DNA of 64,000 nt. Source: Umbilicaria muhlenbergii (lineage: Eukaryota; Ascomycota; Lecanoromycetes; Umbilicariales; Umbilicariaceae). Made by a program: the position numbers and the translations under genes. Positions within the stretch are counted from its first letter, which is position 1. Each line of letters starts with the position of its first letter. The stretch is taken from contig KK106981.1 in NCBI GenBank assembly GCA_000611775.1, positions 5,272,927 to 5,336,926 on the forward strand, in the 5' to 3' direction. Shown one piece after another: positions 13,647-57,394 of this stretch. The notes under the pieces were generated by a model. It ran no database searches and had not been told where the DNA came from. It saw nothing but the letters and a program-made list of their open reading frames with translations.

Positions 13647-16600
13647 ATGGAAGGCACTATCCTTCAAGGCCGGCAGAACGGCGGCGAAGACACAGGCCAA
13701 ACATTTCTCGAACTTGTACAGGACCCTTTCAAAGCTAGTGTGAGTTGCTACAGCTTCCATGTCCGGGTCTACACACTAACAACGACTCTTCCAGTTTCAA
13801 GCCAATGCTTTCTGGGTGTCCCTCGGTACCTCCGTAGGCACCATGATCCTGATTACGCTGTTCTTCTCCCTTCTTCGGCCTCACAACTCCGTCGTATACG
13901 CGCCCAAGGTCAAGCACGCCGACGACAAACATGCCCCGCCTCGCATCGGGAAGGGTCTATTTGCCTGGTTTACGCCAGTATTGAGGACCAGGGAGGTAGA
14001 ATTGGTAGACAAGGTTGGACTTGATGCCACGGTCTTTCTCCGCTTTACACATATGTGCAGGAACCTGTTTCTCGTCATGAGTGTGTTTGGGTGTGGGATC
14101 TTGATCCCCACCAACGTGATCGCCAGCAACAAGGATATTGCAAAAGGGATATCAAACGAGACTAATAGGGCTTTTGCAGTGATGACGCCGCAATTCATTT
14201 TCGGATCTGCGTTATGGAGTCACGTCGTCTGTGCGTGGATATTCGACATCATCATTGCCTACTTTCTGTGGAGTAATTACAGGGCCGTGACACGCTTGCG
14301 GAGGCAGTATTTCGAGAGTCCGGAGTACCAGATGAGCCTGCATTCGCGGAGTCTAATGATGACCGACATCCCACCATCCTATCGATCAGACGAGGGAATC
14401 CTCCGCATCGCCGGCGAAGTGGAGCAAAGTTCGGGTTTGCCACGTGCAGCTATTGGTCGCAATGTCAAGGAGCTCCCCGAGCTCATTGATCAGCATAACA
14501 ACGCTGTCAGAAAGTTGGAATCTATCTTGGCAAAGTACCTCAAGAATCCTGATCGTCTGCCTCCGAGGCCCACCATACACCCATCGAAGAAAGACCATCG
14601 CGCCAAGCATGGGACCAAGGTAGATGCGATTGAGTACTTGACAGGACGTATCCGCGAGCTTGAGATGGAGATCAAGGACGTCCGTGAATCCATTGATAAG
14701 CGAAATGCTATGCCCTACGGATTTGCCAGTTACAGTAGGATCGAAGACGCCCATACAGTCGCGTATGTTGCGAGGAACAAGCACCCCCAAGGTACGACTA
14801 TCAGGCTCGCCCCACGACCAAATGATATTATCTGGGACAATCTCAAGCTTTCTAAGAAATCAAGAAGATGGAAGCGTTTCATGAATAACATTTGGGTTGC
14901 TCTCCTGACGGTCATCTGGATCGTACCTAACGCAATGATTGCTATATTCCTCACCGATCTCTCCAACCTTGGACGTGTCTGGCACGCGTTTCAGACCAGT
15001 TTGAACGGGAATCCCAAAACGTGGGCAGCAGTCCAGGGTGTAGCTTCCCCAGCGTTGATGTCGTTAGTGTACTTGGTCTTACCCATTATCTTCCGACGAC
15101 TCTCCATTCGAGCAGGTGATACGACGAAGACCTCTCGGGAGAAACATGTGACCCACAGACTCTACGCTTTCTTTGTTTTCAACAACTATATCGTCTTCTC
15201 TTTCTTCTCTGCAATTTGGGCCTGGGTCAGTGCCGTCGTCAGTCAAAGTAAGACTCACAGTGTATGGGACGCCCTCAAAGGCGGACAGTTCTTCAGCAAC
15301 CTTATGCTGGCCCTCTGCACTATCTCTCCGTTCTGGCTGACATGGCTTCTTCAACGTAACCTCGGGGCGGCCGTCGACATCGCACAGGTCATCAATCTCA
15401 CCTGGATTTGGTTTGCTCGTACGTTCGCAAGTCCCACCCCACGCCAGGCCATCGAGTGGACCGCTCCTCCTCCGTTCGATTACGCCAGCTATTACAATTA
15501 CTTCCTCTTCTACTCTACCATCGCTCTCTGCTTCGCCACACTGCAACCCCTTGTCCTTCTTGTCACAGCTCTTTATTTTACCGTTGACTCCTGGCTCAAG
15601 AAGTACCTTCTCCTTTACGTTTTCATCACCAAAACAGAATCTGGCGGCCAATTCTGGCGCATCCTGTACAACCGCTTTATCTTCGCCGCCATCCTAGCCA
15701 ACTGCACCAGCGCCCTCGTCATCAAAGCCCGAGGCACCTGGACCATGATCTTCGCCATGGCGCCCCTCCCCATCCTAATGCTCCTGTTCAAATGGTACTG
15801 CGCCCGCACCTTCGACGACCAATGCACCTACTACACCAAAGCCACCCTCATCAAAGACCCCGAGCTCGTCATACCCGATGCATCCAAAAAATCCACCCGC
15901 AACGACCGCGTCGGAACCCGCTTCGGCCACCCCGCCCTCTACAAGCCCCTCATCACCCCCATGGTCCACGCCAAAGCGCAAAAGGTCCTCGCGGAAATCT
16001 ACCGCGGCCGCCTCGACGACGGCTCCGACACCGCTTCCGTGGCCGGCTACTCGGATATCGCCATGGATCCCATGTCGCACACGCAGCCGGGCAAAGCCGC
16101 CCGCTTCGCCCCCGGCACCGGCACCCGCGATCTCTTCGAAGTGGTGCCTGAGTCGCGGCTCGATTTCGCCTACTTCAAAACGCGCGACGAATTCGGCGAC
16201 GACCATGGCGGCGACGGCGAACTCTATGGCCGTCCTGCGGATCTTGTCTCTGAGCGCAGTCATACGCCTCGTAGCTTTTTGGGCCGGGATGGCGGTTCGC
16301 TGTCTAGCTCTAGAGCATCGAGTCCGGCGCCTAAGTCTCGTCCGGCGTCCCGCGATCATCTGGGCGGCTATGGTGGCGATTTAGGGGATCAGGGTTTCCG
16401 AGGAGGGGGGGATGCCGGTGGCGGTGGGGGGATATATCATTTGGGGAATGAGAGTGAGAGTAGGTTGTTGAGCGGGGCGCAGGCGCCTGGGGTTGCGGAT
16501 AGGGATTTCGGGCACGGGCACGGGGCCCCGGAGATGGGGAGGGAAGACGAAGTGATGGGGATGGATAGGTGGCGAGGGGGGGGAAGGGGGTATGTGGGGG

Positions 16601-16659
16601 TGCCGATGGCGGCTGAGGAGGAGATTACGAGTTATGATTACTTTAGGGGGAAAAGGTAG
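13647..16659 (+). CDS. CSC1/OSCA-like stress-gated cation channel (RSN1/PHM7 family)
   Basis: Exon 1 is 13647-13739 and exon 2 is 13795-16659, giving 985 aa. The 55-nt intron has a CACTAAC branch site. The first membrane helix (WVSLGTSVGTMILITLFFSL) is followed by two more by about residue 180. A large cytosolic loop (roughly 180-370, PHM7 type) comes next, and then a multi-helix RSN1_7TM channel region from about residue 375 to 700. Known members are osmotically or mechanically gated calcium-permeable channels of the plasma membrane or ER. The tail (about 800-985) is disordered, first Ser-rich and then Gly-rich. The coding strand changes from strongly C-rich (15650-16150) to strongly G-rich (16380-16650), described in the findings. 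Confidence 0.93.
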
Positions 16660-17444
16660 AAGTGGGGGAATGGAGTGGGCGCTGTAGGTGTTTGGGGGGG
16701 GGGTTTAATGGTGTTTTTGGCTGCTTTGCTGTTAGGGCGGGAGTGGGTTAGGGGCATTGGATGTGAAGTTTAGCGGGAGTTTGGTGGTAAAAGTAGAGTA
16801 TGATTTATGAGATGAGGCATCTGAGTCGATGGTGGGGAGTAGAAGATGTGAGATGAACATCTATGAACGTCATGCATAACTTACTGAATCACTCGTCCCG
16901 TCACTGTCTGTCTACAAAGCACTGCCTGGCCGCTTTTTCGTGATTAATACGTATATTACATCCGCGACGGAGGAAATAAGCTTGGGGCCCTCTCGGGGAG
17001 TCAACAGCAAGAGTGACATACGAAATCAAGAAGTCGTCAAAAAGGATCGACTCCCACCGTTCTCTACGCGCCGTTGTGGAACCACACTCACCACCGCATC
17101 CGAAGGATCCACCAGCTGTAAGTTCTCGTGCAACGCAACACAAACGACGCAAGTATCGGACCGACCCTGCATGCATGCCCGTACGTCCGGCCATTCCCAC
17201 TCCCAATTGGCAATCCCAGCATCGCCATCACGACATCACTCGATCCACATTCCCAGAACAGAACCGTAATGTTAACATGTACTGTATTCTAAACCCTGAA
17301 AACAATAGCCGAACAAAACGCCCAAGGACCCCATCCGCTGGCCCCGCTAGACCCTCCCAAAGTCACCTTGAACAGAGAAACCCTCCCCCCAACTTCCCCC
17401 CCCCTCCGGCGGGACCCCCATTACCCCTTTCCACCCTCTCCCCC
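16660..17444. terminator. Convergent 3' intergenic region with G runs and C runs
   Basis: Lies between the 3' ends of the CSC1-like gene (plus) and the oxysterol-binding protein gene (minus), so it holds both terminators. The left part is G-rich (ten Gs near 16693) and the right part is C-rich (17385-17435), mirroring the G-rich 3' ends of both genes. A 208-codon plus-strand reading frame that enters this region is a shadow of the minus-strand gene. No RNA gene seen. Confidence 0.4.
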
Positions 17445-18870
17445 TCACGGACGCTGCTGATTCAACTGATTCACATTACCCACCCCGCCCTTGAACCGCC
17501 ACACCCCGCCCGTCCGATCACTTTCGATCCTCTCCCCAATACACCGCGACAACTTCTCAAAGACCGGATCCGGCCCGTTCAAGCGGTCAAAATACCTCCG
17601 TTCCCACTCCCTCCCTTCAGCCTGTTCCTTCCGCCTTAACTCCCGCTGCGAATTCTCAATCTTCGACTTCTCCAACCCCGTCGTATCCATATCGCCCTTC
17701 ACAATCGCCTCCGCGACCTTCTGCCACGCGCGATGCGACTCAAGCGGATCCTGCTGCTCCAGCGGCGCGACCGTCAACGGCGTCGTCTTGACCGCTTTGG
17801 CATCGTAAGTTTCGATGACAGAATGCGAGCTCTTCTTGCTGCTGCCGCCGCCTTCGCGGATCGTGAAGCCGTCGGTCCACTGGCCGTCGATAGTGTACAG
17901 GATTTCCTTTTCGCGGCCCTCCGGGAACAGGGTGGCGGTGAAGCTGTTCTTTTTGCCGGACAGCCAGCCTTTGCCGCTGTAGTCGATTTTGGCGACGTAG
18001 CCGGAGGAGGACGAGATGTAGGTTGCTTTGTTGAGTTCGACAAAGGGGCTGCCGTAAATAAGACCTTCGATGTGCAGGGCTGGGAGCGTGATTAGGTAGT
18101 CTTCGTTGTAGGCGTCGATGTGGAGGAGGGCGTGGCCGATTTGTTTGACGTGGATGGTGCGGGAGAAGGTGGCTTTTTGGGCGTTGTAGCCTTGGAGCTG
18201 GGGAGAGAGTTAGGATCGGAGATGGAGGAGCATGTGGATTTACATGACTGGGGATGGCTTACCCTGACTCCGTGCTTGTCGTTCCAGATGCTGTAGGCAG
18301 TGACGGGTGGGTGATGGCTGTACTTGAATCAGTCCCGGTCTTGACACTTCCACTGGTAACACGCCGTCCATACCTGACTTGTTCCGAAACCAAATGTGTC
18401 GTCCCGGCCTCATCCTCCCATTTCCCAAGATACAGCTCCCCCAAGAATGGGTTCAGCGGTTTCTTCTCCGATCCAAGCTTCTCACTTCGGCTGGCATATG
18501 AAGATTTCAAAGTGCTAAGAAACCACTTCAGAACGAGAAGGGCGCGTTTCTGTGGATCTGGTTCAGATGCGGGGGCGACGAAGATGGAGGGGTGTTCGAC
18601 CCAGTAAGCGGAGAACTCGACGAGGGAGATGGTGCTGAGAATGAAGGGAGGGGCGGTTAGGGAGGCGAGATCGCCGTTGAAAGATGCTATCGACTGCAGA
18701 GCGAGTCAGCAGCAGTATGGTTCGAGCAAGTACGATTGTTTGGACGTAATCACACAATAGTATGTGATGCTTCACGCTGATAACGGGGTACGCACCTTGA
18801 GGAATGAGGACCAGGAGCCTTTGTTCTGCGGTGCGACGCCGGCACCCTCTTCCCTGGACGATGAAGACAT
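17445..18870 (-). CDS. Oxysterol-binding protein, KES1/OSH4-like
   Basis: Exons 18870-18796, 18693-18374, 18317-18263 and 18197-17445 join to exactly 400 aa, typical of the short, OSBP-domain-only class. The protein starts [20 protein letters not shown]. The family signature [12 protein letters not shown] is split across the second intron. Further matches are [24 protein letters not shown] and the C-terminal helix [21 protein letters not shown]. There is no PH domain or ankyrin repeat. Members exchange sterol for phosphatidylinositol 4-phosphate between membranes. The 3' third of the coding strand is G-rich, whereas the part before it is C-rich. Confidence 0.93.
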
Positions 18871-19391: not shown

Positions 19392-21210
<1,819 letters not shown>

Positions 21211-27973: not shown

Positions 27974-29611
27974 ATGTCAACACTTCCGCCATACTCCTCC
28001 CGCCCACTTACTCCACCCATTTCCGAGCCTCCTGCGCTGGTGTTCGACAGCAACCATTCCCGCAACACCTCGAGCTCCTCTACTTGGTCCGTCTACTCGT
28101 CACCTGGCTCCGACGACACCAATGCCACCAGCCCTAGTCGTTCACCAGTCAGGCGTCATGGACCTATACTATTGCCGCGAGTCAGGACACAAGATCAAAG
28201 TGTGGAGCCGGCGTACAGAGTAACAAAACCCCACAAGAGAACTTTGTCAAGCACCTGCAACCCTCCAGGACGTGCGCGGTCCACTGTACGACCATCGGTG
28301 CAGCGAAGCACTACCAGCCCTCCGGAATGCGTCTCTCTGATCTCCCCAGTGTCGGCTACCTCACACTTTAGCCTTGGGTCCTGCAGTAGTTCTGCTCTGA
28401 ATTCGCCAATCACCGTGACGCCGTCCTTCTCGCGGGGTGGGGACACACACTCGAGATCCACATCCGCATGTAGCATTAATGATGTGACGCTGGGCAGATT
28501 TGGCTACCCTACGTATCGCCGTGCGCCAGCATACATTACCGGGGCTCAGTATAGTGCTTCATTTACACCAGGGTCATCAACTTTCATACCACCACCGCCG
28601 CCGATACCCCCACAGTCGTTGTGTTATGAAATAGCCAAGGAGCTAGAGTACGAAGGCCAAGATGATCCTCAAACGACCCTTCGGCAATACCTCACCGGCC
28701 CAAATCCAACGGTAATGCTAGTCCCCAAGGACAGTGTCGAGGGTAGAGAGGACCTACATACTCATTTCTGGTGGGACGTCCGCAACACAGAGGTATGGCA
28801 GGATTTCAATCTGGAGACCATCGAGGCTGTGCCCGATTTTCCCGCGCTTCTCGACATTCCCTTCTCAGCCGCCGCCTACAGAAACCCTAATATCGCCCAG
28901 TCCCGCCTGCAACCGCGTTCCGTAGGTGCACTCCAAGAGATCTGCAACGACTTCTACGCCACGAAAGTCACGGCCGCCCTGAAAGCGTCACTGGGGAAAC
29001 ACAACTACATCCAAATGCGGGCCCAAAAACCTCGTGACGGGCCACACTTCGTTTCCAGTTACCAGAACGACATCGAAAGGACCATCGCGGGCAATGGTCG
29101 CGGCCGCGTCGTCGGTCTCGTCAAACCCTTTGACCGCTGGAACACCGGCATGCGGCACGGCAACCCCGTCAAACAAGTCGACTACCTCCAGCACCTCTCG
29201 CATCTGCACCACTACATGCGCGAACACCAATGCCGCTACGGCTTCATCATCACCGAGATCGAACTGGTCTGCGTCCGTGCCGGCACGGAGGGCACACCTT
29301 TTTTCGGCCATTTGGAACTCTCGCCGGCGGTCGAGCTGGCCGCTCAAGAGGGGCTCACCGCGTGTCTGGCGCTGTGGTATCTGCATATGCTGGCGAAGGA
29401 GGAACCGTTGCCGGGGCAGTGCGGGTGGCCGTTGGATATTGGACCGCCGAGTTTGCTGACGAGGTCGCATGTTTTGGGGGAGAGGGACGAGTGGATGCCG
29501 AAGCCGTTGGAGGGGGAGAGGAAGACGGCGAAGAGGAAGAGGGGGTGGGTTTGGCCGGAGGATCCGTATAATAAGAAGACGGAGAAGGCGAGGGTGGGGG
29601 GGAGGTGGTAG
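27974..29611 (+). CDS. Conserved-looking fungal protein of unknown function, 545 aa
   Basis: An intronless frame. Residues 1-205 are Ser/Pro/Thr-rich and disordered with a proline run (PPPPPIPPQ). From about 210 the protein is globular: EIAKELEYEGQDDPQ, HTHFWWDVRNTEVWQDFNLE, then RVVGLVKPFDRWNTG and YGFIITEIELVCVRAG, followed by FGHLELSPAVELA. The spacing of Glu and Lys residues around the YGFIITEIELVCV strand recalls PD-(D/E)XK-like folds in fungal proteins, but this is inference. A basic tail (RKTAKRKRGWVWPEDPYNKK) could be a nuclear signal. The coding strand switches from C-rich to G-rich at about 29310. I do not know the function. Confidence 0.75.
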   Translation: MSTLPPYSSRPLTPPISEPPALVFDSNHSRNTSSSSTWSVYSSPGSDDTNATSPSRSPVRRHGPILLPRVRTQDQSVEPAYRVTKPHKRTLSSTCNPPGRARSTVRPSVQRSTTSPPECVSLISPVSATSHFSLGSCSSSALNSPITVTPSFSRGGDTHSRSTSACSINDVTLGRFGYPTYRRAPAYITGAQYSASFTPGSSTFIPPPPPIPPQSLCYEIAKELEYEGQDDPQTTLRQYLTGPNPTVMLVPKDSVEGREDLHTHFWWDVRNTEVWQDFNLETIEAVPDFPALLDIPFSAAAYRNPNIAQSRLQPRSVGALQEICNDFYATKVTAALKASLGKHNYIQMRAQKPRDGPHFVSSYQNDIERTIAGNGRGRVVGLVKPFDRWNTGMRHGNPVKQVDYLQHLSHLHHYMREHQCRYGFIITEIELVCVRAGTEGTPFFGHLELSPAVELAAQEGLTACLALWYLHMLAKEEPLPGQCGWPLDIGPPSLLTRSHVLGERDEWMPKPLEGERKTAKRKRGWVWPEDPYNKKTEKARVGGRW

Positions 29612-31010: not shown

Positions 31011-32059
31011 ATGGCTGAAACGCCTACGAAGCCTACACGTCGCGTGCTTGTTGACGTGCCGGTCAATACACCTTCAAGACTCCATGCATTGAGCGGTTCC
31101 GCTGGAAAGTCCCATCTTGGAAAGCACATCATGCCCAATGCGACGAAACCCTACGCGGGTCAAAAACGAGGCATTCAGGAAGTCGACGAGCCAGAATCAC
31201 CACCGAACCCGCACCGGATGTTTGCTTCGCGTCAAGATATGCCGTTGGGAGCCACAGTGTATATGGACGAGGTATGAGATAGCTGGCATCAAGGGCTTCG
31301 TAGCATGCTAATTAGAGATCACAGGAACCAGAATTAGCACGTACCCCGCCTTCACAGACGAACGATGCAAATGAGATCGCCTTCGGTAGCACCTCGCAGC
31401 AAAGCGTCAAGACTTCAATGTCATCCCTGATCGACTTCGACCCGGAGGATGATACTCAGACATCTCAGCAGACGGCAGCGACAGAGTTGACGCAGCCAAC
31501 GCGATCCGCCGCAAGCTTGGTACGTTCAAATAACTCGTAGAGGATCCCCTTGGCTGAACATCCACAGCATGCTGAAACACTCCGCCTTCGGTTACGGGTT
31601 GCCATGTTCAAAGTGCAAACAAACCAGACGAGTATACCGATGTCGAGACTTCAGATATCATCCAGTAACACCGGCAGTCGGTCACCAGAAACACTAGGGC
31701 CCCAGGGAAATGTGGCCGAACAGCACTCAAACCAAGCAGCATTGCCGAGACTTCTTCCAGCGCCGATACTTCGGCCAACCGCGTACTCTGCGCGTCATAT
31801 CACACAAACGCAGGTTCCATCTTCTCCTCCCGACTCCGCCGAGGACAGCCCGAAGCCTGCCATGCAGGAAGAAGTATTTCGCACACCAGCTTTGCCAAGG
31901 CAGAAGAAGCTAGCTTCCCCTCTCCAACTGAGCAGTCCGCCTGACAGTCAGCCTCACGTGGGCGGAAGGCTAGAAGACGAAGAGGATAATCTGACCAGCA
32001 GTGTGGCGAAGGGTAGAGCGGCGAATGGCCTGTTGGGTCTGATGCGCATGGGACGATAG
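31011..32059 (+). CDS. Nrm1/Whi5-like G1/S transcriptional repressor
   Basis: Exons 31011-31271, 31325-31519 and 31568-32059 join in phase to 315 aa. The protein is mostly disordered and Ser/Thr/Pro-rich. The only conserved segment is HAETLRLRLRVAMFKVQTNQ (starting about residue 153), which matches the GTB motif by which Whi5 and Nrm1 bind the SBF/MBF transcription factors. Several S/T-P sites (for example NTPSRLH, RTPPSQ, RSPETL, RTPAL) could be CDK targets, as in Whi5. The third exon begins exactly at the GTB motif. It likely restrains G1/S genes in the nucleus. Whether it is the Nrm1 or the Whi5 counterpart cannot be told. Confidence 0.8.
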
Positions 32060-32594: not shown

Positions 32595-34016
32595 ATGGCG
32601 ACCAAGGCTTTGGTACCATTCCTGGTAGCGATGATGTTACTGACCGGTGTCTGCAATACTTTGCTCACCAAGTATCAAGTGAGTTGATCACGTACCCCGT
32701 GCCGGATATAAGTAGCTAACATAGCCAAGGACCTGCAATGTGTCCGCAACTGCCATTCCAGTGATCCGAAGAAACGGCAGCACTTCGAACAGCCGGTCAT
32801 ACAAACGTATATACTTCATATACACTCTGTCAATATCAAGCTGACGTAACATAGAGCCCAAATGTTCATCGGCGAAATGGGATGCTGGCTCGTCGTCGCG
32901 GGCTTCAACATCTACAAGCGATACTTTGCCAAAACCGCACCTTTGCTCCAAGGCGGCTACGAAAACGTCAACGATACCCACTATGGCCCTGACTCGGACG
33001 AGGAAGACGGGCTACTATCAGATAGTCGCTCAGCCCAGGACGCAGCGAATCCTGCCGCGAAACCCTTGGTTGCGAACACTGACAATCGACGAGAGCTTGT
33101 TGGGTGGAGAGTCATACTTCTAGCGCTCCCCGCGTGCTGCGATATTGCCGGCACGACGTTGATGAATGTCGGATTACTGTTCGTGGCAGCGAGTATCTAC
33201 CAAATGACTCGAGGCGCCTTGGTGTTGTTTGTCGGTCTCTTCAGCGTCATCTTCCTACGCCGGAAGCTTTATCTCTATCAGTGGGCATCGCTGTTTATTG
33301 TGGTCCTCGGTGTCGGTATTGTTGGGCTGGCTGGAGCTATTGCGCCGAATCCACAAGCAAAGCCGGGGCCAAGATCCGTTGTGGAGACTGGGATGCTACT
33401 TCTACGAACAGTGTGTGATAATGTCCACGCAACGGCAAGGACGCCGGAAGCGGTGCAGACGATCATTGGGGTTCTTCTGATTGCGGGTGCTCAGATATTC
33501 ACTGCAACCCAGTATGTCCTCGAAGAGTGGATCCTGGAGCAATATGCACTGCAGCCGCTGAAAGTCGTTGGTTGGGAAGGTGTCTTCGGATTCATCGTCA
33601 CAGTATTGGGCATGATAATCCTGCACTTTGCGATCGGCCGGACAGAAAAAGGCCGATATGGTTACTTTGACGCAAAAGAGGGTTGGCGAGAGGTCACTCA
33701 ATACAGGTCCATTGGAATCTCTTCTCTCTTGATCATGATCAGCATCGGCGGCTTCAACTTTTTCGGACTCTCCGTCACCAAGACCGTCAGCGCCACCGCG
33801 AGGTCGACCATTGATACGTGCCGGACGCTCTTCATCTGGATCGTGTCGCTTGGGCTCGGGTGGGAAACTTTCAAATGGTTGCAGATTCTGGGGTTTGCAC
33901 TTCTGGTTTATGGAACGTTTTTGTTCAATGATATCATTAGGCCGCCGTTGAAAGCTTGTGTCCGGAGACAAAGAACCGAGCCTCTCCTGCCAGAGGACCC
34001 TATTGAGCACCTCTAG
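32595..34016 (+). CDS. SLC35F6-like drug/metabolite-superfamily transporter
   Basis: Exons 32595-32678, 32730-32806 and 32855-34016 join to 440 aa. The N-terminus MATKALVPFLVAMMLLTG, the CNTLLTKYQDLQCVRNC segment and MFIGEMGCWLVVAGFN are distinctive of the SLC35F6 group. About ten membrane helices can be picked out, with an acidic loop (DSDEEDGLLSDSRSAQD) between the second and third. The repeated EamA-type pattern includes ASIYQMTRGALVLFVGLFSV and TVSATARSTIDTCRTLFIW. SLC35 proteins move nucleotide sugars or other small metabolites across Golgi, lysosomal or mitochondrial membranes; the substrate here is unknown. The tail ends in an acidic-dileucine-like TEPLLPED. Confidence 0.88.
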
Positions 34017-35193
34017 ATACTTTATCAGAGACTACTAGGTCTCTGTGCCTGCAACAAGATAGCGGCATCGACTACAAGTCACTTACTATCTGTTTTGGAG
34101 GTCCCAGTCAACAGTTCATAATGCTGTCCAGATCCTGGCAGTCTAACGCCCATTGGCCGCTCAACCAGCCTGCTCACCGACAGCCTAGTCGCTCTTGTCC
34201 GGAGGAGCGGGATCGGTCTCTCCCATATCTAGAAAAGACAACACGTCCACACGAACGAAATCAACAAGAACACACTTCCAAAATGAAAGCTTACGTCCGA
34301 TACCTAACCGCCACCTCCGCGTTACCGTCACGCGATCCTGGAAGGAAACAGTCTTGTCAGTCTTCGCAATGGCGCCGTCGGGACAACTCGTCACTCTGCT
34401 AAGCTCTGGGGAAGAGGAAGATCACCCCGGCTTCTGGGCACCACATCATCCTTCTTCACTGCTCCGGTCTTCTGCATCTCCCCGGAGGCCGGCTGCGCGA
34501 TAACAAGCATGAGGACGACCCGTTAGGTCACCCCGTGCGCCTGTACTGTAAGAGACAGGCAGAAGCTACGAGTGCACGCTGCGTACTCCTCAAAGTACTC
34601 AGATCACCGAGAGCAGATACATCGATGTAAGGAATCTTATCTTACAACACGACAATTCCAATCCGGGGGTGCAGATGTGGGATGTTGTACAAACCTTCTC
34701 AGACCTTTTCTCACTCCCAAGCAGGGCCATAATTCCGTCTTATACTGCCTCACTCATCATCTGTATTAGAAATATCATATTCTCAAAGACAGATTTAGAT
34801 TTAGATCTAGCGCGAGAGTAGCTAGCTACAAAAGACCGTACCGCAATGCAGAAAAGCCCCATACCATCCGTAGAAGACAAAACAAAACGATCCTCATCTA
34901 CCCATGACCTGACCTGCCCTCTTCAAGAGGTCCTTTGTTTTGAAACCAGCAAATCCATCTATGCCCGAAAGCCCATCTGTACGTTTCAAAGCGCCCGCGC
35001 AAAACGCCAGCCCGCCACCTTGTCGGCAGGTACATTCCAACTAAATTTCTTGATAACACGCCTTCCTCCCCAACGCCCGTCGCGACCCGAGTGCCCGCCT
35101 CGAACTATCTTATCTTCATCTTCATCTTCCCCAACACCACTAGCAGATCTCCTCCCCCTCATACCGTCCTCCCTCCCCGCCTACAACCTCGTC
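34017..35193. other. Convergent 3' intergenic region
   Basis: Between the 3' ends of the transporter (plus) and Med15 (minus). The plus strand becomes strongly C-rich from about 35080 toward the Med15 stop, mirroring the G-rich 3' end of that gene. The frames at 34121-34503 and 34846-35511 are unsupported or shadows. Confidence 0.45.
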
Positions 35194-38100
35194 TCAAAAC
35201 ACCATCGGATCAAACCCCTTCCCCTTCGCCTCCTCCCCCACCTCCATCTTCCCAAACGCGCTTTCCCAATCCACATCCCCCAAATCGACCTCCAACCCGC
35301 CCTCCGCACCCCCCAACCGCCACCTCACCTCCGCGCCCCCGCCCACACCCGCGTCGTCAAACCACTCCTGCGGCAACCAGCTGCGATCGTCCGAGATGCG
35401 AAGCTTCAGATCCAGCGCGTCCGTCTCGGCGATGTCGCTCGCGCGCGGACTGTTCTTGTCGGAGGATTTCCCACTGCGGCTGCTGCTACTGCTGCTGCTG
35501 TTGGGGGATAGGGAGGAAGAAGAAGGAGGATGAGGAGGGGTGAGGGCGGGTTGGAGGTCGGACCAAGGGATGGATTGGATGTCAGACAGGCCGGAGAAGC
35601 AGTGGGAGAGGTCGGCGGGGGAGATGGAACTGTCGGCCCAGAGGTCGAGTGCGGGTGGTGGTGGTGTGTGGGGAGACTTGGTGACGGCGGCGGGGTTTGG
35701 GGATTTCGGCTTGGTGTCTTTGAGCGTTTCGAGCTTGGTGCCGGAGGTGGCGGATGCGGGGGTTTTGACGTGGATGGAGGCTTGGGGCGTCTTCAACATC
35801 TGCGAGGCGGGTGATGGGCCCGTCTGCGTCGCCGCGCGGCTCATGGGTAGACCGGCTTGACCGGCTGGTGTGGCGACTTCTTGCTTCATTGGCGTTTGAG
35901 ACTGCTGGGAGGCCGAAAGCTTCATCTTCGGTGCTTCCAGCGTTTTGTTTTCCGGTTTGGGTTCCTCCTTTCTGGGCTTCATCTTCCCGTTCACGTCTAG
36001 GCCTAGACCTAGTCGAACGCTCTCCATAGCCCATGCCAAAGGATCCTCGATTGGGGGTTCCTTCGGTTCATGTGTATCCGCTGTATGCTTAGTAAGTTCT
36101 GTTTGTGAGCTGAACCCAGTCTTGTTCGCATCGCAACTTCCAACAGGACACTTGAATGTCTGGGGCACCGCTTGCTGACGTTGAGCCTCTGGTGATGGTA
36201 TCTTGACCATTTGGGGCGGGGAGCTCGACGCTGGCGTTGCTTGTACCTGAGCAGGCGTGGAGGCTGCACTATTTTGCTGATTGGGTTTCCGCTTCTTCGG
36301 TGGCGGGAATTTGAGTTGATCTTGCGTGAGTACGGTCGGGCCATATGCATGTGGAGTACCATCTGGAGATTGGGCTCCCAGAAGAAACGGTGGTTGCGTC
36401 GCGGTAGGAGCAGCCGGGGCTCGATTTTGTCGATGGCTTTCGTTCCTCTGCAACTTAAGCTGCGCTGCTGCCTGAAGGGCTTGTTGCTGCTGTTGTAGAT
36501 TTGCTGCGTTAAGCTCAGGAGTCTGCGCTTGATTCCCTCCTGGTGGTGGTTGAGCCTGACGATCCTGCGCCGGTTGTTGGTTTCCTTGCGCTTGCACGTT
36601 GGAGTTCCTTTGCTGAAGCATTTTTTGCATCGCGAAGGCGAAATACTTTCGAAGCTTTGTGATCGACGCCTCAAGTTCTTCTGGAGAGATGGTAAAATGA
36701 TCTCCAGGGTTGTACTCCTTATCGCGATACTGTTGAACAAGCAGCAGGCGCTACTTATTGTTAGCTTCCCTTCAATCTCCTAATGAACAAATCAGGCGTA
36801 CTGTGCGGATTAACTCCCTTGTCATGTCCTCATCCCCGAACATCCTGAAGAACATGGGCAGCGACTGCTCCATCCTAGTAACCATTTCTTTGGCTTCCCG
36901 AAGCTGTTGGGCCATCTTCCCCATTGTTTGAGGATTAAGGGGTAGAGGAGGCCGCTTCGGGGTACTCTGCAGTACTTCCTGAACAATTTGCTTCAGTCGT
37001 GCGTCCTTTCTCATGTTTTCCTCATTAGGCTGACGCTCATTGATCACTTGGCCTTCCGCCTTGGTACCATGAATTGACTGTGACTGAGGGGTAGCCTGTG
37101 CTCTCTGGGCGGCTTGTCTCTTCATTTCTTCGAATTGTGCTCTTTGCTGTGGGGGCATAGAAGTCATTTGCTGAGCAGTAGTTTGCGGCACGTTGAGCCG
37201 ATTCTGATTAGGATTTTGCGGGTTGGTTGGAGTTTGTGAGTGCTGTTGCTGCTGCTGAGGTTGTGGCTGCTTTTGTTGCGTTAGGTTGGGGTTAGGGACC
37301 TCGACCACGTCGTCGTTGGATCGTTTAACACCTTTCTGGGTGGTTTGACCTTGAGCTTGTGCTTGAGGTCCTTGCCGACCTTGCTGAGTGAGCCTTGGTG
37401 GCTTTTCATTGTTCTGCACCGCCGGAACTCTGCTAACAGGGGCCTGCTGTGGAGGTTGTAGCTGCGGCGGAGGAGCGAGCTGAGCTGAAGGTGTCTGGGC
37501 CATTTGCCTTTGAAGCTGCTGTTGTTGGGATTGCTGCTGTGCTCTTTGCATTGCCATATAGTGCGCCTGTTGCTGGGTCATCACTTGCTGACCTTGACCA
37601 GCTCTCATCATTTCCATTTGTCTGCGTCTTAGGATCATGGCTCGTACTTGGTCATCCGTCAATGTCCTCATCTGCTCGGGCAGACGAGCGCGAGCCGCTT
37701 GAATCTCTTGAATGGTCGGCGGTGGCAAAGAAGTCGCACCAGTGGGTGCCACCATCTGCGGTCCGTTCGTTGCTTGCATTAGCGGCTGAGTGTTACGCGA
37801 TGTGACTGACTGCGCTTGGAGAGCCGCGTTCATTGGGATATTCTGTTGCGTACCCGGCTGGCCATGGTTCATCTGAGCCATGTTTCTATGCTGGTTGTTT
37901 GAGATGTTCAGATAGTGGAGCCCCTGAAGGCCTCTCAGCTTACCCAGGCTCTCAGCAGGTAATGTATGGGCATTTTGTGCGACCCAGGATTTCAGCTGCC
38001 CCCATGTCGAGACGTTTGCAGGTAGCTGTGACAGCGCATTGTTAGCATTGAGAATACCTGTTGGAAAGTTCACTTTGTCCATTTCCCTAGCTTGATCCTC

Positions 38101-40352
38101 TGTCAATGAAGTCGCAGCTAACTCAGCAGCTCTACGTTGCTGCATGTTTTGACGGCGCACCATCTCCTGATGCTGTGCTTGGTCTCTTTGCTGTGGCCCG
38201 AGTTGCTGATGTACATTTGTAGGACCTTGAGGTTGTCTCTGTGCAGATGGAGGCCGTTGAAGGGCATTCAAATTTGAAACAGGAGCTGGCTGAGTAGTCT
38301 TCACTTGACCCGGCGGTAAGGTTTGAGGAGGTAGTTGGCCAGGTTGACTTTGTTGGCTTTGCATAGGTACAGCATTCGATGGTATTGCTTGCATCCCATT
38401 CATTTGCATGGCTTGAGAACGCTGCTGCTGCTGCTGCTGCTGTAGACGTTGATGCTGCCACTGATTCATCAAAAGCCTCTGCTGATCCTCTGGTAGGTTC
38501 GCCAATTGCTGTTGAATAGCCGTCATAGGTCGATTCCGTGGAGGACCTGGGGGGACGCCTTGCTGCGGTGCCTGCTGCGAAGGCTGCTGCACCATCGTCT
38601 GTTCCTGGCTCTGCATTTGGTTCATGTTTGGAGTCTGCTGTTGTGGTCGTTGCTGGGGTGTCCCTTGCGGTTGTGACTGCTGGTTGAGAGGTCGATTGAG
38701 CATCGACATCGCCGGGCTTGGTTGTTGTGCAGGTCTCGCCCCGAGGTGATTACCTAGCCCACCAACCTGGCCTTGAAGCTGCTGCGCATGAGACTGTGCG
38801 TTCATGCGAGCTTGGGCTTGAGCTTGAGCTTGTGCCTGAGCCTGCAACTGAACGGCATGTTGAGCTTTTTCTTGTTGTATCTGCTGAGCGTTGAAAAATT
38901 GCTGCTGCGGCTGAGTCATGGTCTTTGGATTCTGCATAGGCCGGGGTATCGCTGCCTGTCCGTCCATCTTCTGTTGAGGTGTGTCATGATAATTCGCCCT
39001 CTGCTGTTGGGCCTGGGCTAACTTCTGGCTGTCACTGGCGGGAACGACAAGATGACCAGCTTCTTGCGAGCGCAAAGCATCTTGCTGTTGCCCAAGGATT
39101 TGATTCATATTGCCTAGGAAAGATGGGTCGAAACCCTGGGATACAGCAACAGCTGCAGATTGTTGGCCTTGCATGGCTAAGGGGTTTTGAGACATTGGCC
39201 GTGCCTGCGGTAGCATGGGTGTGCCTGTTGGAGGCATGCCGCCCTGTCGCAGATGACCTTGCGCTTGTATGTTCGCTTTGGCAGCAATGAATTGCTTGGT
39301 TGCCGCCTCATGGAAGAAGTAGGCTAAAGGATCGACATTTTGGTTCATCAAGTGCTGCCTCTGTTCCGGTGATATGTTCTGAAGATTATTTCTGATCTTA
39401 TCTAACGCAGTCCTGGGAGTGCTTTGGGCCAATCTCTGCGCCCGACGGTTAATCTGCTCCTTCTCCTCTGGTGTGAAGGAAGTGTCGGCTGGACCCATAT
39501 GACCCGCCGGTTGGTACATGTTCTGGGACATTTGCTGTACTTGCTGCATGGGCATCTGAGCATTGGGCATACCGTAGCTCATAGACAACTGTTGTGGGGT
39601 CTGCGATTGTTGCTGCTGATGTGGTACTGGAGATGCCTGCATGGGATGCTGCAGTTGAGGATTCGGAAAGCCGGACTGGAATTGGCTCTGATTCTGGTTG
39701 GACATGGGTCCTTGCACAGGTATTTGCTGCTGAGACATCATGCTCATCTGCGGAGGTTGAAGGGTTTGCATCTGCTGTTGTAGATTCGCCGTTTGTCTTG
39801 ATCGAGTATCCCGAATGTGGCCAAGCTTATCTCGACATTGTTGCTCATAGGAAGCCTGGAATTTTGCTTTAACACGGCTCTAAGAATGACGGGCATTACA
39901 ACGCCACTGTTTGTAAGATAGAGTGGTTACTGACCTTATCGGAACATTCTCTGAAGGTCTTCGACTCATAGGAGATTGCGACTTTGATAACCTCATTAAT
40001 GTCCATGTCTTGCTTGATCAGGCGCAGCGATGATATCCTAGAAAATATAAGCTTCTCTGCCATGGAATAAAGTGGACAGATTCGAGTTACGCCACCAGAA
40101 TGCTGGTACAGGAATGATCCCACAAGAAAGGCTGGAAGTGAAAAGGGCGACTTACAGTTGCAGCACGTTGTTCGTCCGCTGCTGCACAGTAACAGTTGTC
40201 TGCCACCCCGGTGGATGCTGTTGCTGCTGTAGCGTCCTGAAAATATGCTGTATCTGACCTTGGCCGCCGCCCCTCTGTAGGCCCGCTTGCTGTTGACCAG
40301 CCGGGGTAGGGCCCCGCAGAGCTGCCATGTTTTGAAAATTCCCGGCGTTCAT
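35194..40352 (-). CDS. Mediator complex subunit 15 (Gal11/Med15), very large
   Basis: Exons 40352-40156, 40037-39935, 39879-36802 and 36750-35194 join in phase to 1644 aa. Med15 is a tail-module subunit of Mediator that receives activator signals in the nucleus. The N-terminal KIX-like domain (about residues 35-95) contains GWQTTVTVQQRTNNVLQLIS and INEVIKVAISYESKTF. A later conserved block is FTPEEKEQINRRAQRLAQST, followed by PLAYFFHEAATKQFIAAKA. Most of the centre is Gln-rich low complexity with CAG/CAA runs. Another ordered segment (PKRPPLPLNPQTMGKM...LPMFFRMFGDEDMTRELIRT) precedes the last intron. The C-terminal 500 residues are Pro/Gln/Ser-rich. The length exceeds that of many fungal Med15 proteins because of the Gln-rich centre. 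The 3' end of the coding strand is G-rich. Confidence 0.88.
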
Positions 40353-51282: not shown

Positions 51283-52519
51283 ATGTCCAACAAATCCACC
51301 CTCCGCCTCCTCACCCACTCCCCTTCCCTCCGCCATCCCCCTCGCCCCCCCCGCGCCCCTCTCAGCCCTTTTCCTCACCACCGCCTCTTCGCCACCAACC
51401 ACCGCCCCTCTACGCCTCGATCCCACCCCACCCCCCCTCACAACCCCTTCGACCCCATCGCCGCCCACCGCTACGAAGCCGAACGCCGCGCCTACCACAC
51501 CCGCCGCATTATCTACAGCGCCGCCGGCGCCCTCGTCTGCGTCCTCGCGACCGTCGCCCTCGCCCAATCCGTCGACACCGTGCCGCCCAAAGCCCAGCAA
51601 TGCGATGCCGGGCCCGAGCGGCTGGAGCGGGGGAGAGCGATCGTGGGCGGGGTGGCCGGGGGAGCGGAGTTGAGGAAGGTGGGGGAGGGCGAGAAGCCGA
51701 AAGAGGAGAAGGGGGACGGGGACGACGGGGTCGAACAAGTCCCCACGGGGACGTCGACGATCCCGACATTCCCCAAGACGATCCGCCTGCCGGCGTCGGC
51801 GGCGAGTTCGCGCTCGACCGTGTCGGCGGCGCTGCCCGCGGGCACGGGGACGCGGGCCCCGGACGCGGAGTTCCAGCTCCTGGGGCTGGGCGTGCGCACG
51901 GTCTCCTTCCTCGGCATCCAGGTCTATGTCGTGGGCTTGTATGTCGCGACGGCGGATGTTGCGGTGCTGCAGCAGCAGCTGGTGAGGCGGGTGGCGGGCA
52001 CGGAAACGGCGACGACGCTCGTGGGGGGGGAGAAGGATCGGCTCCGGGAGTTGCTGATGGATGCCGAGGGCAGCGAAAGGGTCTGGGGGGAGGTGCTCAA
52101 GGAGGGCGGGGTCAGGAGTGTGTGGCGGATTGTGCCGACGCGGAATACGGATTTTGCGCACTTGAGGGATGGGTGGGTTAGGGGCATTACGGCGAGGAGT
52201 CAGCAGCGGAATGGCGGGGGCGGGGAGGTTGAGGATGCGGGGTTTGGGGCTGTCTCTTATACAGGGGGTGAAGAAGGGGAAGGTACTTTTGTTGGAGAGG
52301 GATAAGAGGGGGGGGTTGGGGGCGTGGGTGGAGGATGGGGAGGAGGGGGGGATGGTGAGGTTGGGGGAGGTGGGGGATGAGAGGGTGGGGAGGCTGGTTT
52401 GGTTGGGGTATTTGGCGGGGAGGAAGGTTAGTAGTGAGGGGGCGAGGAGGAGCGTGGTGGATGGGGTGATGGAATTTGTGGAGAGGCCGGTAGGCACGGT
52501 TGCTACGCAGGTTGTCTGA
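51283..52519 (+). CDS. AIM18: AIM18-like mitochondrial protein, chalcone-isomerase fold; frame broken
   Basis: The N-terminus is Ser/Arg/Pro-rich and presequence-like, followed by a membrane helix (RIIYSAAGALVCVLATVALA). The chalcone-isomerase-like domain begins with LLGLGVRTVSFLGIQVYVVG and continues to RNTDFAHLRDGWVRGITARS. Frame 1 stays open to 52305 but becomes nonsense after about 52240. The expected C-terminal part (VLLLERDKRGGLG, then RLVWLGYLAGRKV, then VVDGVMEFVERPVGTVATQV) is in another frame ending at 52519. The switch coincides with CTGTCTCTTATACA at 52250-52263, which looks like sequencing adapter (see findings). A 37-nt intron would also restore the frame but lacks a branch site and is shorter than any other intron here. 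The coding strand is C-rich before about 51600 and G-rich after. Confidence 0.82.
52250..52263 (+). other. 14-base match to Tn5/Nextera mosaic end (likely assembly artefact)
   Basis: CTGTCTCTTATACA equals the first 14 bases of the 19-base Tn5 mosaic end used as the Nextera adapter (CTGTCTCTTATACACATCT). It sits exactly where the AIM18 frame changes and within extreme G-rich sequence. By chance a given 14-mer is expected on the order of 0.0005 times in 64 kb counting both strands. Confidence 0.7.
52296..52420 (+). other. Dense G-run tract with G-quadruplex potential in AIM18
   Basis: The AIM18 coding strand carries many runs of three to seven Gs separated by one to eight bases (for example GGGGGG TT GGGGG, then GGG, GGGG and GGGGGGG). 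This fits the usual four-run G-quadruplex pattern several times over. It still encodes the conserved C-terminal frame. Confidence 0.6.
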
Positions 52520-55965: not shown

Positions 55966-56318
55966 TTTTGGCTTGAGTGATACTATGAGTGAGTTTCCCG
56001 TTGAGAATTCAGATTTTCTAGCACGTGACTAGGTAATCCATGTGAATCATACCTTGGCGGCTTGCCTCAGTTAACTCAGACCCATTGCGAAGAACATGGC
56101 TGCGCCACAACTAGTCCTTTTCAAGGACTTCTTCTCCACGTTATTGATAATTACAGGCTGAAATCACTTCCAGACATGTAATTTAAGTTTAGTGCAATGC
56201 TCAAATATTTCTGCTGTGTACATCTGAGAAATACTTGTTTTCTATTTAATAATCAAAAACATAAACAAACTTCTCACACGTTGAGAACTTATCTCTTTAC
56301 ACTTATTTTCTATCACTG

Positions 56319-56682
56319 CTCTGCTGCCTTTTCTGCTGTCTTTTCTGCTGTTTTCTCTGCTGTTTTCTCTGCTGTTTTCTCTGCTGTTTTCTCTGCTGTT
56401 TTCTCTGCTGTTTTCTCTGCTGTTTTCTCTGCTGTTTTCTCTGCTGTTTTCTCTGCTGTTTTCTCTGCTGTTTTCTCTGCTGTTTTCTCTGCTGTTTTCT
56501 CTGCTGTTTTCTCTGCTGTTTTCTCTGCTGTTTTCTCTGCTGTTTTCTCTGCTGTTTTCTCTGCTGTTTTCTCTGCTGTTTTCTCTGCTGTTTTCTCTGC
56601 TGTTTTCTCTGCTGTTTTCTCTGCTGTTTTCTCTGCTGTTTTCTCTGCTGTTTTCTCTGCTCTTTTCTCTGCTGTTTTCTGC
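56319..56682. repeat. 12-bp minisatellite, about 30 copies
   Basis: A tandem array of GCTGTTTTCTCT, with slightly variant first copies and one variant near the right end (GCTCTTTTCTCT). The unit is a multiple of three with no stops in five frames, so it makes long open frames: Ala-Val-Phe-Ser on plus; Arg-Glu-Asn-Ser, Gln-Arg-Lys-Gln and Thr-Ala-Glu-Lys types on minus. The copies are almost identical, so the array expanded or homogenised recently. Confidence 0.95.
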
Positions 56683-57394
56683 GCGCGCAAGTTTTGTGCA
56701 TGTTATGCACATCACTATGCAGAAGTTATGCAAAATCTCTACATTTTCATCACACAGAAGATTCAGTGCTAGGGATTTCTATATAACTCAGTCTGAAGGC
56801 TGCTATCAATGAGTTTAAATGGCGAAGCAATTTTGAGAGAGTGTGACCGTCTAGTTTTTGAGATATAAGATGACTGTTTTGAACTGAAAAGTGCACTCTG
56901 TGAAGACTTAAGAAACTGTTCAATAACAAGACACTTTTTGGAAATACTGACTACAGCATTAGATAACGCGGCCATTATATAATCTATTACAGTTGTAACA
57001 TTGAATAACAAAATTGTGGTTGATTTTGTGTGACTGTTGTGCCTCCATGACTTGAGATTTTGACATGAAGCGTTTTCTACATACAGTCATAATGAGTGTG
57101 TGTACAGCTAAACGAAGCGTTTTCTGGCCTGTTTTTAGAATTACGCCCTCAGACCCTCCCCGGAAAACGCACGTAGTAAGCAGTTTTCGCTAAGCCACAG
57201 GCTAGCGAGGGGTGGTCTGAGTGACTGAGGCAATTGGCGGCTTGAAAGATGATCAGGTATGGTAGGTGCAAGTACCTTATGCAACTTCATTTTGTCATCG
57301 TTTCGACTGCTGCGTGCTGGCTTCGAGAATTACTTCTACATGAAAATGCCTCATCAATCTCTTCAAGTGACAAATACCCGCTGCAATCGCAGTG

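Follow-up and report, generated by a model that had tools for sequence, protein, structure and literature searches.

Two-armed C-to-G switches near gene 3' ends of Umbilicaria muhlenbergii and their apparent link to convergent gene pairs

Results

C-to-G switches in the sampled genome

The strand composition of this fungal genome flips from C-rich to G-rich close to the 3' ends of a set of genes, which in our gene models are mainly members of convergent pairs. The window, a stretch of 64,000 nucleotides (positions 5272927-5336926 of contig 1), belongs to a genome of 34.79 Mb in seven contigs that contains fungal genes such as Med15_fungi and MAT alpha box. An earlier note had described the flip in this window. 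We scanned 314 kb of the same genome, consisting of 264 contiguous kb around the window and five 10-kb stretches from contigs 2-6; three further stretches (contigs 7, 1, and 3) brought the sample to 344 kb of about 34,800 kb, and two 3.4-kb loci were added. The flip was confirmed and extends beyond the window. In the 314 kb, two-armed switches with z ≥ 5 ran from C to G in 43 cases and from G to C in 15; the numbers were 18 vs 2 at z ≥ 8, 11 vs 0 at z ≥ 10, and 61 vs 47 at z ≥ 4. The eight stretches outside the 264 kb gave 11 vs 3. Three first-order Markov copies of the 264 kb contained, at z ≥ 4, no C-to-G switch and one marginal G-to-C switch. When even bases were used for detection and odd bases for measurement, the same profile was obtained (34 vs 11 switches), indicating that the switch is more than a selection effect.

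Comparison with shuffled synonymous codons, proposed in the earlier note, also favored the switch. Among 73 genes of at least 200 aa, the C-to-G change lay beyond all 60 shuffles in 22 (about one expected), and the G-to-C change did so in 9. With 300 shuffles per gene, the values of the 545-aa gene and the Med15 ORF were reached by none, that of CSC1 by 14, and that of AIM18 by 36, with OSBP outside this test; shuffling within single genes is a weak test, too weak for short genes. The description of the switch as abrupt suited 13 of 27 fits, in which the transition scale was below 160, and failed for the other 14, which were broad. Med15 had a narrow transition, CSC1, OSBP, and AIM18 had broad ones, and the 545-aa gene did not reach the threshold for fitting.

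Switches in the window

In a scan of the window, the five switches named earlier took the first five places among C-to-G changes when arms of 400 or 600 were used, but not with arms of 200. In 100-bp profiles, C-then-G order was found in OSBP (near 17800), the 545-aa gene (near 29300), Med15 (near 35430), and AIM18 (near 51600). The third positions of CSC1 are C-rich and then G-rich to the stop (G 0.62 from 16471 onward), with a mixed zone of roughly 200 bp between. On the + strand of OSBP, 17300-17799 is C-rich and 18000-18299 G-rich; in the AIM18 profile, 51300-51599 is C-rich and 51900-52499 G-rich. The location at the gene 3' end, stated for all five, does not apply to AIM18, where the switch comes before the midpoint of the ORF. 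The skew continues beyond the stop into the 3' flank. Phosphoglucomutase, given earlier as a gene free of the pattern, indeed had no called switch at its tandem end; its closest structure match was PDB 7p5o, which we take to be an Aspergillus fumigatus structure. The Med15_fungi match covers profile positions 5-71 of 112 and stops close to where the ORF of the first exon ends.

Table 1 Features of the window (positions within the 64,000 nucleotides)
Feature	Positions	Strand	Basis and remarks
CSC1-like gene (RSN1_7TM / PHM7)	13647..16659	+	Pfam, gene model; + member of a convergent pair
CSC1 C-rich arm	15655..16266	+	C3 0.50-0.76 in six 102-bp bins
CSC1 C-to-G switch	16171..16360	.	Centre varies in this range with arm length
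CSC1 G-rich arm	16400..16799	+	G 43-56 and C 6-11 per 100 bp; reaches about 140 bp beyond the stop
G-to-C crossing between the facing CSC1 and OSBP	16980..17060	.	z 8.1 at window 17018 (117018 of the joined stretch)
Oxysterol-binding protein (OSBP) gene	17445..18870	-	Pfam Oxysterol_BP, model; - member of the pair, stop 17445
OSBP C-to-G switch	17300..18299	-	Scan, profile, fit; centre about 17729-17857
Phosphoglucomutase	19392..21210	-	Pfam; tandem end, control, no called switch
545-aa gene	27974..29611	+	Scan, Pfam (no match); switch near 29254-29361
EamA-like transporter	32862..34016	+	Pfam, end classification; faces Med15, no called switch
Med15 gene	35194..39771	-	Pfam, two-exon model; stop 35194, faces the EamA gene
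Med15 C-to-G switch	35000..35899	-	Scan, profile, fit; centre about 35378-35475
AIM18-like gene (Chalcone_2)	51283..52305	+	Pfam, scan, profile, fit; switch about 51534-51839

Several other features were observed. Over the Med15 gene, the sense strand is rich in A, with a long, strong AT skew at 36000-39500 that measures -0.25 to -0.38 on the + strand. At 31568-32056, the three-exon model of a small gene contains a Whi5-like domain, from a family of cell-cycle inhibitors. No gene was called within 3.4 kb of a narrow C-to-G switch near 957-977 (within 900-1050); the z of this switch was 7.1 at arm 200 and 5.1-5.4 at arm 400, and it was absent from the arm-600 list. At 56319-56680 there is a 12-bp minisatellite (30.2 copies, 98% match) with a minus-strand (KQQR)n frame of 132 aa; the gene model at 56303-56701 is this minisatellite and not a gene, and was taken out of the final counts. 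Outside the window, an ORF at L023:3839-4663 has a weak HORMA-domain match (E 0.0005, below Pfam's cut-off) and a strong switch 44 bp before its stop.

Position relative to genes

The earlier note had argued that the C-then-G order follows gene direction, being seen in genes of either strand. This is no evidence: CCC...GGG reads CCC...GGG on both strands, and since the order is its own reverse complement, finding it in genes of both orientations is uninformative on transcription. Its tie to gene 3' ends, on the other hand, was borne out. Of the 20 strong switches (z ≥ 7) in the contiguous 264 kb, 17 were centred 0-850 bp upstream of a stop; 2000 random shifts gave a mean of 3.9 and a maximum of 10. 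Gene models were home-made, with a coding share of 46% of the 264 kb. Eighteen of 30 tested switch-adjacent ORFs had Pfam matches at E ≤ 0.01, some of them below Pfam's own cut-off, and the strand of the matching genes is thereby fixed.

Regions up to 600 bp from starts showed no excess of switches, with 14 of 43 against an expected fraction of 0.28. Median switch scores were 25 at 73 5' ends, 23 at tandem 3' ends, and 56.5 at convergent 3' ends. In the sets of 34, 20, and 10 switches, 12, 7, and 1 fell in the first 850 bp of genes (null 6.6, 3.9, and 1.9), and 9, 7, and 3 just downstream of stops (null 5.8, 3.5, and 1.7). We take these start-side and post-stop excesses as putative double counts arising from short genes and close neighbors.

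Convergent and tandem gene ends

Gene ends were classed with a filter of gene score ≥ 30, neighbor score ≥ 25, and gap ≤ 2.5 kb after removal of the minisatellite model. A switch was present at 17 of 24 convergent ends and 4 of 23 tandem ends (Fisher p 0.0004). The genes described earlier simply as a subset are thus mainly convergent pairs, a point that had been missed. Before removal of the minisatellite, the counts were 17/26 vs 4/23, and a looser filter gave 18/31 vs 4/26. Of 12 convergent pairs, seven had a switch at both ends, three at one end, and two at neither; in the seven pairs with two switches, these were 0.8-1.7 kb apart. Exceptions went both ways: a switch was present at four tandem ends, among them that of the 545-aa gene, whose next called gene is in tandem, and missing from seven convergent ends, among them those of the EamA gene and a DnaJ gene.

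The difference lay in the C-rich arm, whose median was -0.463 at 23 convergent ends and -0.219 at 23 tandem ends (p 0.003; also p 0.003 at the level of the 12 pairs). The G-arm was 0.377 vs 0.254, with no significant difference between convergent and tandem ends (p 0.68). Interior positions of long genes (n = 36) gave -0.200 for the C-arm and 0.086 for the G-arm. Set against these interior values, the tandem ends taken together carry the G half but lack the C half. In measures that still included the minisatellite model (25 convergent ends), the G-arm was numerically higher at convergent ends (0.556 vs 0.359, p 0.15; 0.322 vs 0.254), GC over the last 900 bp was 0.573 vs 0.533 (p 0.03), and the C-arm showed no clear trend of fading with the intergenic gap (rho 0.23, p 0.26) and gave no clear support for partner read-through over a set distance, a reading that was rejected (C-arm vs partner stop, rho -0.39, p 0.14).

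In ten Pfam-confirmed convergent pairs, 17 of 20 ends carried a switch, which is no test of convergence because these genes were mostly chosen near switches. The held-out loci L028-L030 contained five called genes, none in a convergent pair. Since a single set of 47 gene ends, from home-made models, served both to find the link to convergence and to test it, we regard the link as a strong lead and not as a settled result. It points to a DNA mark at facing gene ends that opposing transcription either produces or requires.

Composition of the arms

Averaged over the 43 switches, the C content of the left side climbed from 0.26 to 0.45 and the G content of the right side reached 0.42, with the depleted partner falling to about 0.16. 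At the switch centre, GC had a peak of about 0.60-0.62 vs 0.52, and held-out bases showed the rise as well. At four-fold sites within 400 bp, the upstream arm had A 0.09-0.15, C 0.60-0.64, G 0.13-0.16, and T 0.11-0.13, and the downstream arm A 0.07-0.08, C 0.15-0.24, G 0.57-0.65, and T 0.12-0.13; far from switches, the values were A 0.23, C 0.28, G 0.23, and T 0.25. Because switches were selected by G minus C, the strength of the bias is inflated. Four-fold A fell from about 0.24 to 0.13 toward the stop in 77 genes and to 0.07 in the switch arms. The same shift was seen in first and second positions, 3' flanks, and predicted intron cores, where bins were small (103-363 bases). Its presence in predicted intron cores and 3' flanks argues against translation alone as the source. 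In the proteins, Gly and Trp were about twofold up after the switch and Pro 1.8-fold up before it. Arm lengths were about equal, the upstream arm being longer in 13 of 26 by hand count (one geneless fit of the 27 was left out).

We fitted substitution equilibria under one mutation model with an assumed transition bias of 3; the direction of change is inferred from the composition of one genome. With the arms pooled, the best one-parameter fit favored one base over the other three, C on one side and G on the other, with B about 1.5 and a deviance of 63. The other one-parameter deviances were 732 for T-to-C, 1023 for GC-biased conversion, 1251 for C over G, and 1399 for deamination asymmetry. 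Among two-force fits, GC-biased conversion with C over G (two parameters) gave 81, and C over all with slight GC-biased conversion gave 7. In the downstream arm alone, GC-biased conversion with C over G gave 62 vs 88 for C over all.

Two candidate structures were rejected. An RNA hairpin between the arms was at the level of local composition (mean z 0.0 on one strand of 24 loci and 0.24 on the other), with outliers at Med15 (z -3.2 and -2.7) and at one further locus (-2.1). For a specific centre motif, the words enriched at 24 centres were just GC-rich; CCGCCGC occurred in 10 of 24 central windows vs 3 of 48 side windows in a count uncontrolled for composition.

Discussion

We prefer, with a confidence somewhat short of an even chance, a transcription-linked bias for G on the non-template strand that acts in both directions, a switch being two such biases back to back. 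About the last 250 bp of genes and the 3' flank are rich in G on the sense strand, with no significant difference between convergent and tandem ends; farther upstream, chiefly in convergent pairs, C is enriched on the sense strand and hence G on the antisense strand. Where the polymerase of the gene itself ends, G would be favored on the non-template strand; on the opposite strand it would be favored in the gene-end zone that the polymerase of the facing gene may enter. Together, the two biases would give the C-to-G junction and the GC peak. Because the G half corresponds to the published gene-end bias and the C half lies where a facing polymerase can come, this two-way bias is our preferred reading. 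Its source could be weak selection, in both directions, for G-rich pause or termination stretches that form a 'fence' between colliding polymerases, or, about equally likely, strand-biased mutation or repair by ending polymerases. That the switches are two-way fences, each half a G-rich non-template strand for one direction of travel, produced by weak genome-wide pressure at facing genes that is strong enough to alter the encoded C-termini, we consider unlikely. Speaking against the preferred reading are the exceptions among both classes of gene ends, a C-arm with neither a clear fixed distance from the partner's stop nor clear fading with the gap, and the about equal arm lengths. The higher G-arm medians and GC at convergent ends make a source common to both arms possible.

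A rather unlikely contender is a recurrent DNA break or recombination hotspot at the centre, with the 3'-ended strand on each side converted toward C. Poor repair of C-C mismatches combined with GC-biased conversion, or error-prone resynthesis, would then make the left arm C-rich and the right arm G-rich and raise GC between them. C-C mismatches are described as often escaping canonical repair in S. pombe (PMC4154643), and by our own derivation such escape would favor C on the 3'-ended strand, a sign that fits. Breaks account well for the GC peak and the nearly mirror-like four-fold composition of the arms, and the about equal arm lengths and the sharp centres in 13 of 27 fits are also in keeping with them. 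GC-biased conversion with C over G fits nearly as well as the best one-parameter model in the pooled arms and better than it in the downstream arm, and the genome contains Spo11-type TP6A_N, Mnd1, and MAT alpha box, so that sex is possible. Against breaks, tandem ends as a group have a G half and no C half, so that the halves seem not to scale together; nothing accounts for breaks lying in facing ORF ends, two per pair; and the 24 centres had no specific motif.

We regard it as quite unlikely that the switches are merely the published fungal trend, C-biased at the 5' and G-biased at the 3' ends of genes, with the stronger genes picked. The start-aligned skew (-0.17 to -0.18, 77 genes) and the last 100 bp of 48 switchless genes (+0.26) speak for it, and both biases are reported with four-fold sites and UTRs included (PMC3315797). 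However, the published trend is a gene average with a ramp, whereas the 29 switch genes have a local C-rich zone that is no farther than about 1.2 kb from the stop, has G immediately after it, raises GC, and tracks the direction of the neighbor. Deamination of cytosine on a strand exposed in R-loops or as single-stranded DNA would account for a G-rich, C-poor non-template strand near gene ends, but T excess is expected where C is lost, and A and T both drop; with the deviance of 1399 against 63 for the best one-parameter model, it is very improbable. Replication origins at the switches are likewise hardly credible. Bacterial origins give a C-to-G jump, so this sign would agree, yet the average skew is back at background within about 700 bp of the centre, and two switches 0.8-1.7 kb apart occur in seven convergent pairs. 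The earlier interpretation therefore keeps its tie to 3' ends and its view that the pattern does not look like a replication strand, and loses its direction argument. Of the causes it offered, R-loop deamination agrees poorly with the data, as the complementary T excess is missing, GC-biased gene conversion alone is unable to create skew, and 3'-end signals or a terminator-linked process may still apply.

If the C half depends on the direction of the neighbor, convergent and tandem ends in any annotated fungal genome can separate the readings based on transcription, recombination, and an average trend. The C-termini and codon usage of switch genes may carry a signal unrelated to the protein.

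Comparison with known systems

At G-rich terminator or pause regions with R-loops, the non-template strand is G-rich at gene ends, as it is here. To our knowledge, a facing C-rich arm inside the ORF is no part of that picture. As in hotspots of GC-biased gene conversion, GC rises over several hundred bp at synonymous and amino-acid-changing positions alike; unlike under such conversion, G and C are not equal on each strand (four-fold C 0.62 and G 0.15 in the upstream arm; deviance 1023). In Zymoseptoria, 1435 of 2578 Z. tritici hotspots are reported in exons, and GC-biased conversion is described as extremely weak or absent (PMC5844332). The 'GC skew' of PMC7403616 denotes GC-biased evolution.

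Among the matches listed from the titles and abstract beginnings of open-licence literature, the two-armed form and the convergent link were not found, gene-end skew of fungal nuclear genes appeared only in PMC3315797, and no later explanation of its cause turned up. The average 3' G bias was already published in 2011, and the two-armed form and its link to convergence are apparently new, although such a search is no proof. In that work, McLean and Tirosh reported for dozens of fungi genes that are C-biased at their 5' and G-biased at their 3' ends, as an average ramp along the gene that affects four-fold sites, UTRs, and amino acids and leaves A and T little changed; they proposed polymerase-phase mutation or selection on elongation and left the cause open (PMC3315797). 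Our genes share the start-aligned skew, the positive skew of the last 100 bp (+0.62 in the 29 switch genes), and its reach into four-fold sites and the 3' flank. As to the gradual ramp, switch genes gave a mixed picture, with a local reversal that was sharp in the 13 narrow fits and broad in the rest. Our genes differ in that four-fold A and T drop and in having a local two-armed switch with a GC peak, whose C half is found mainly at convergent ends.
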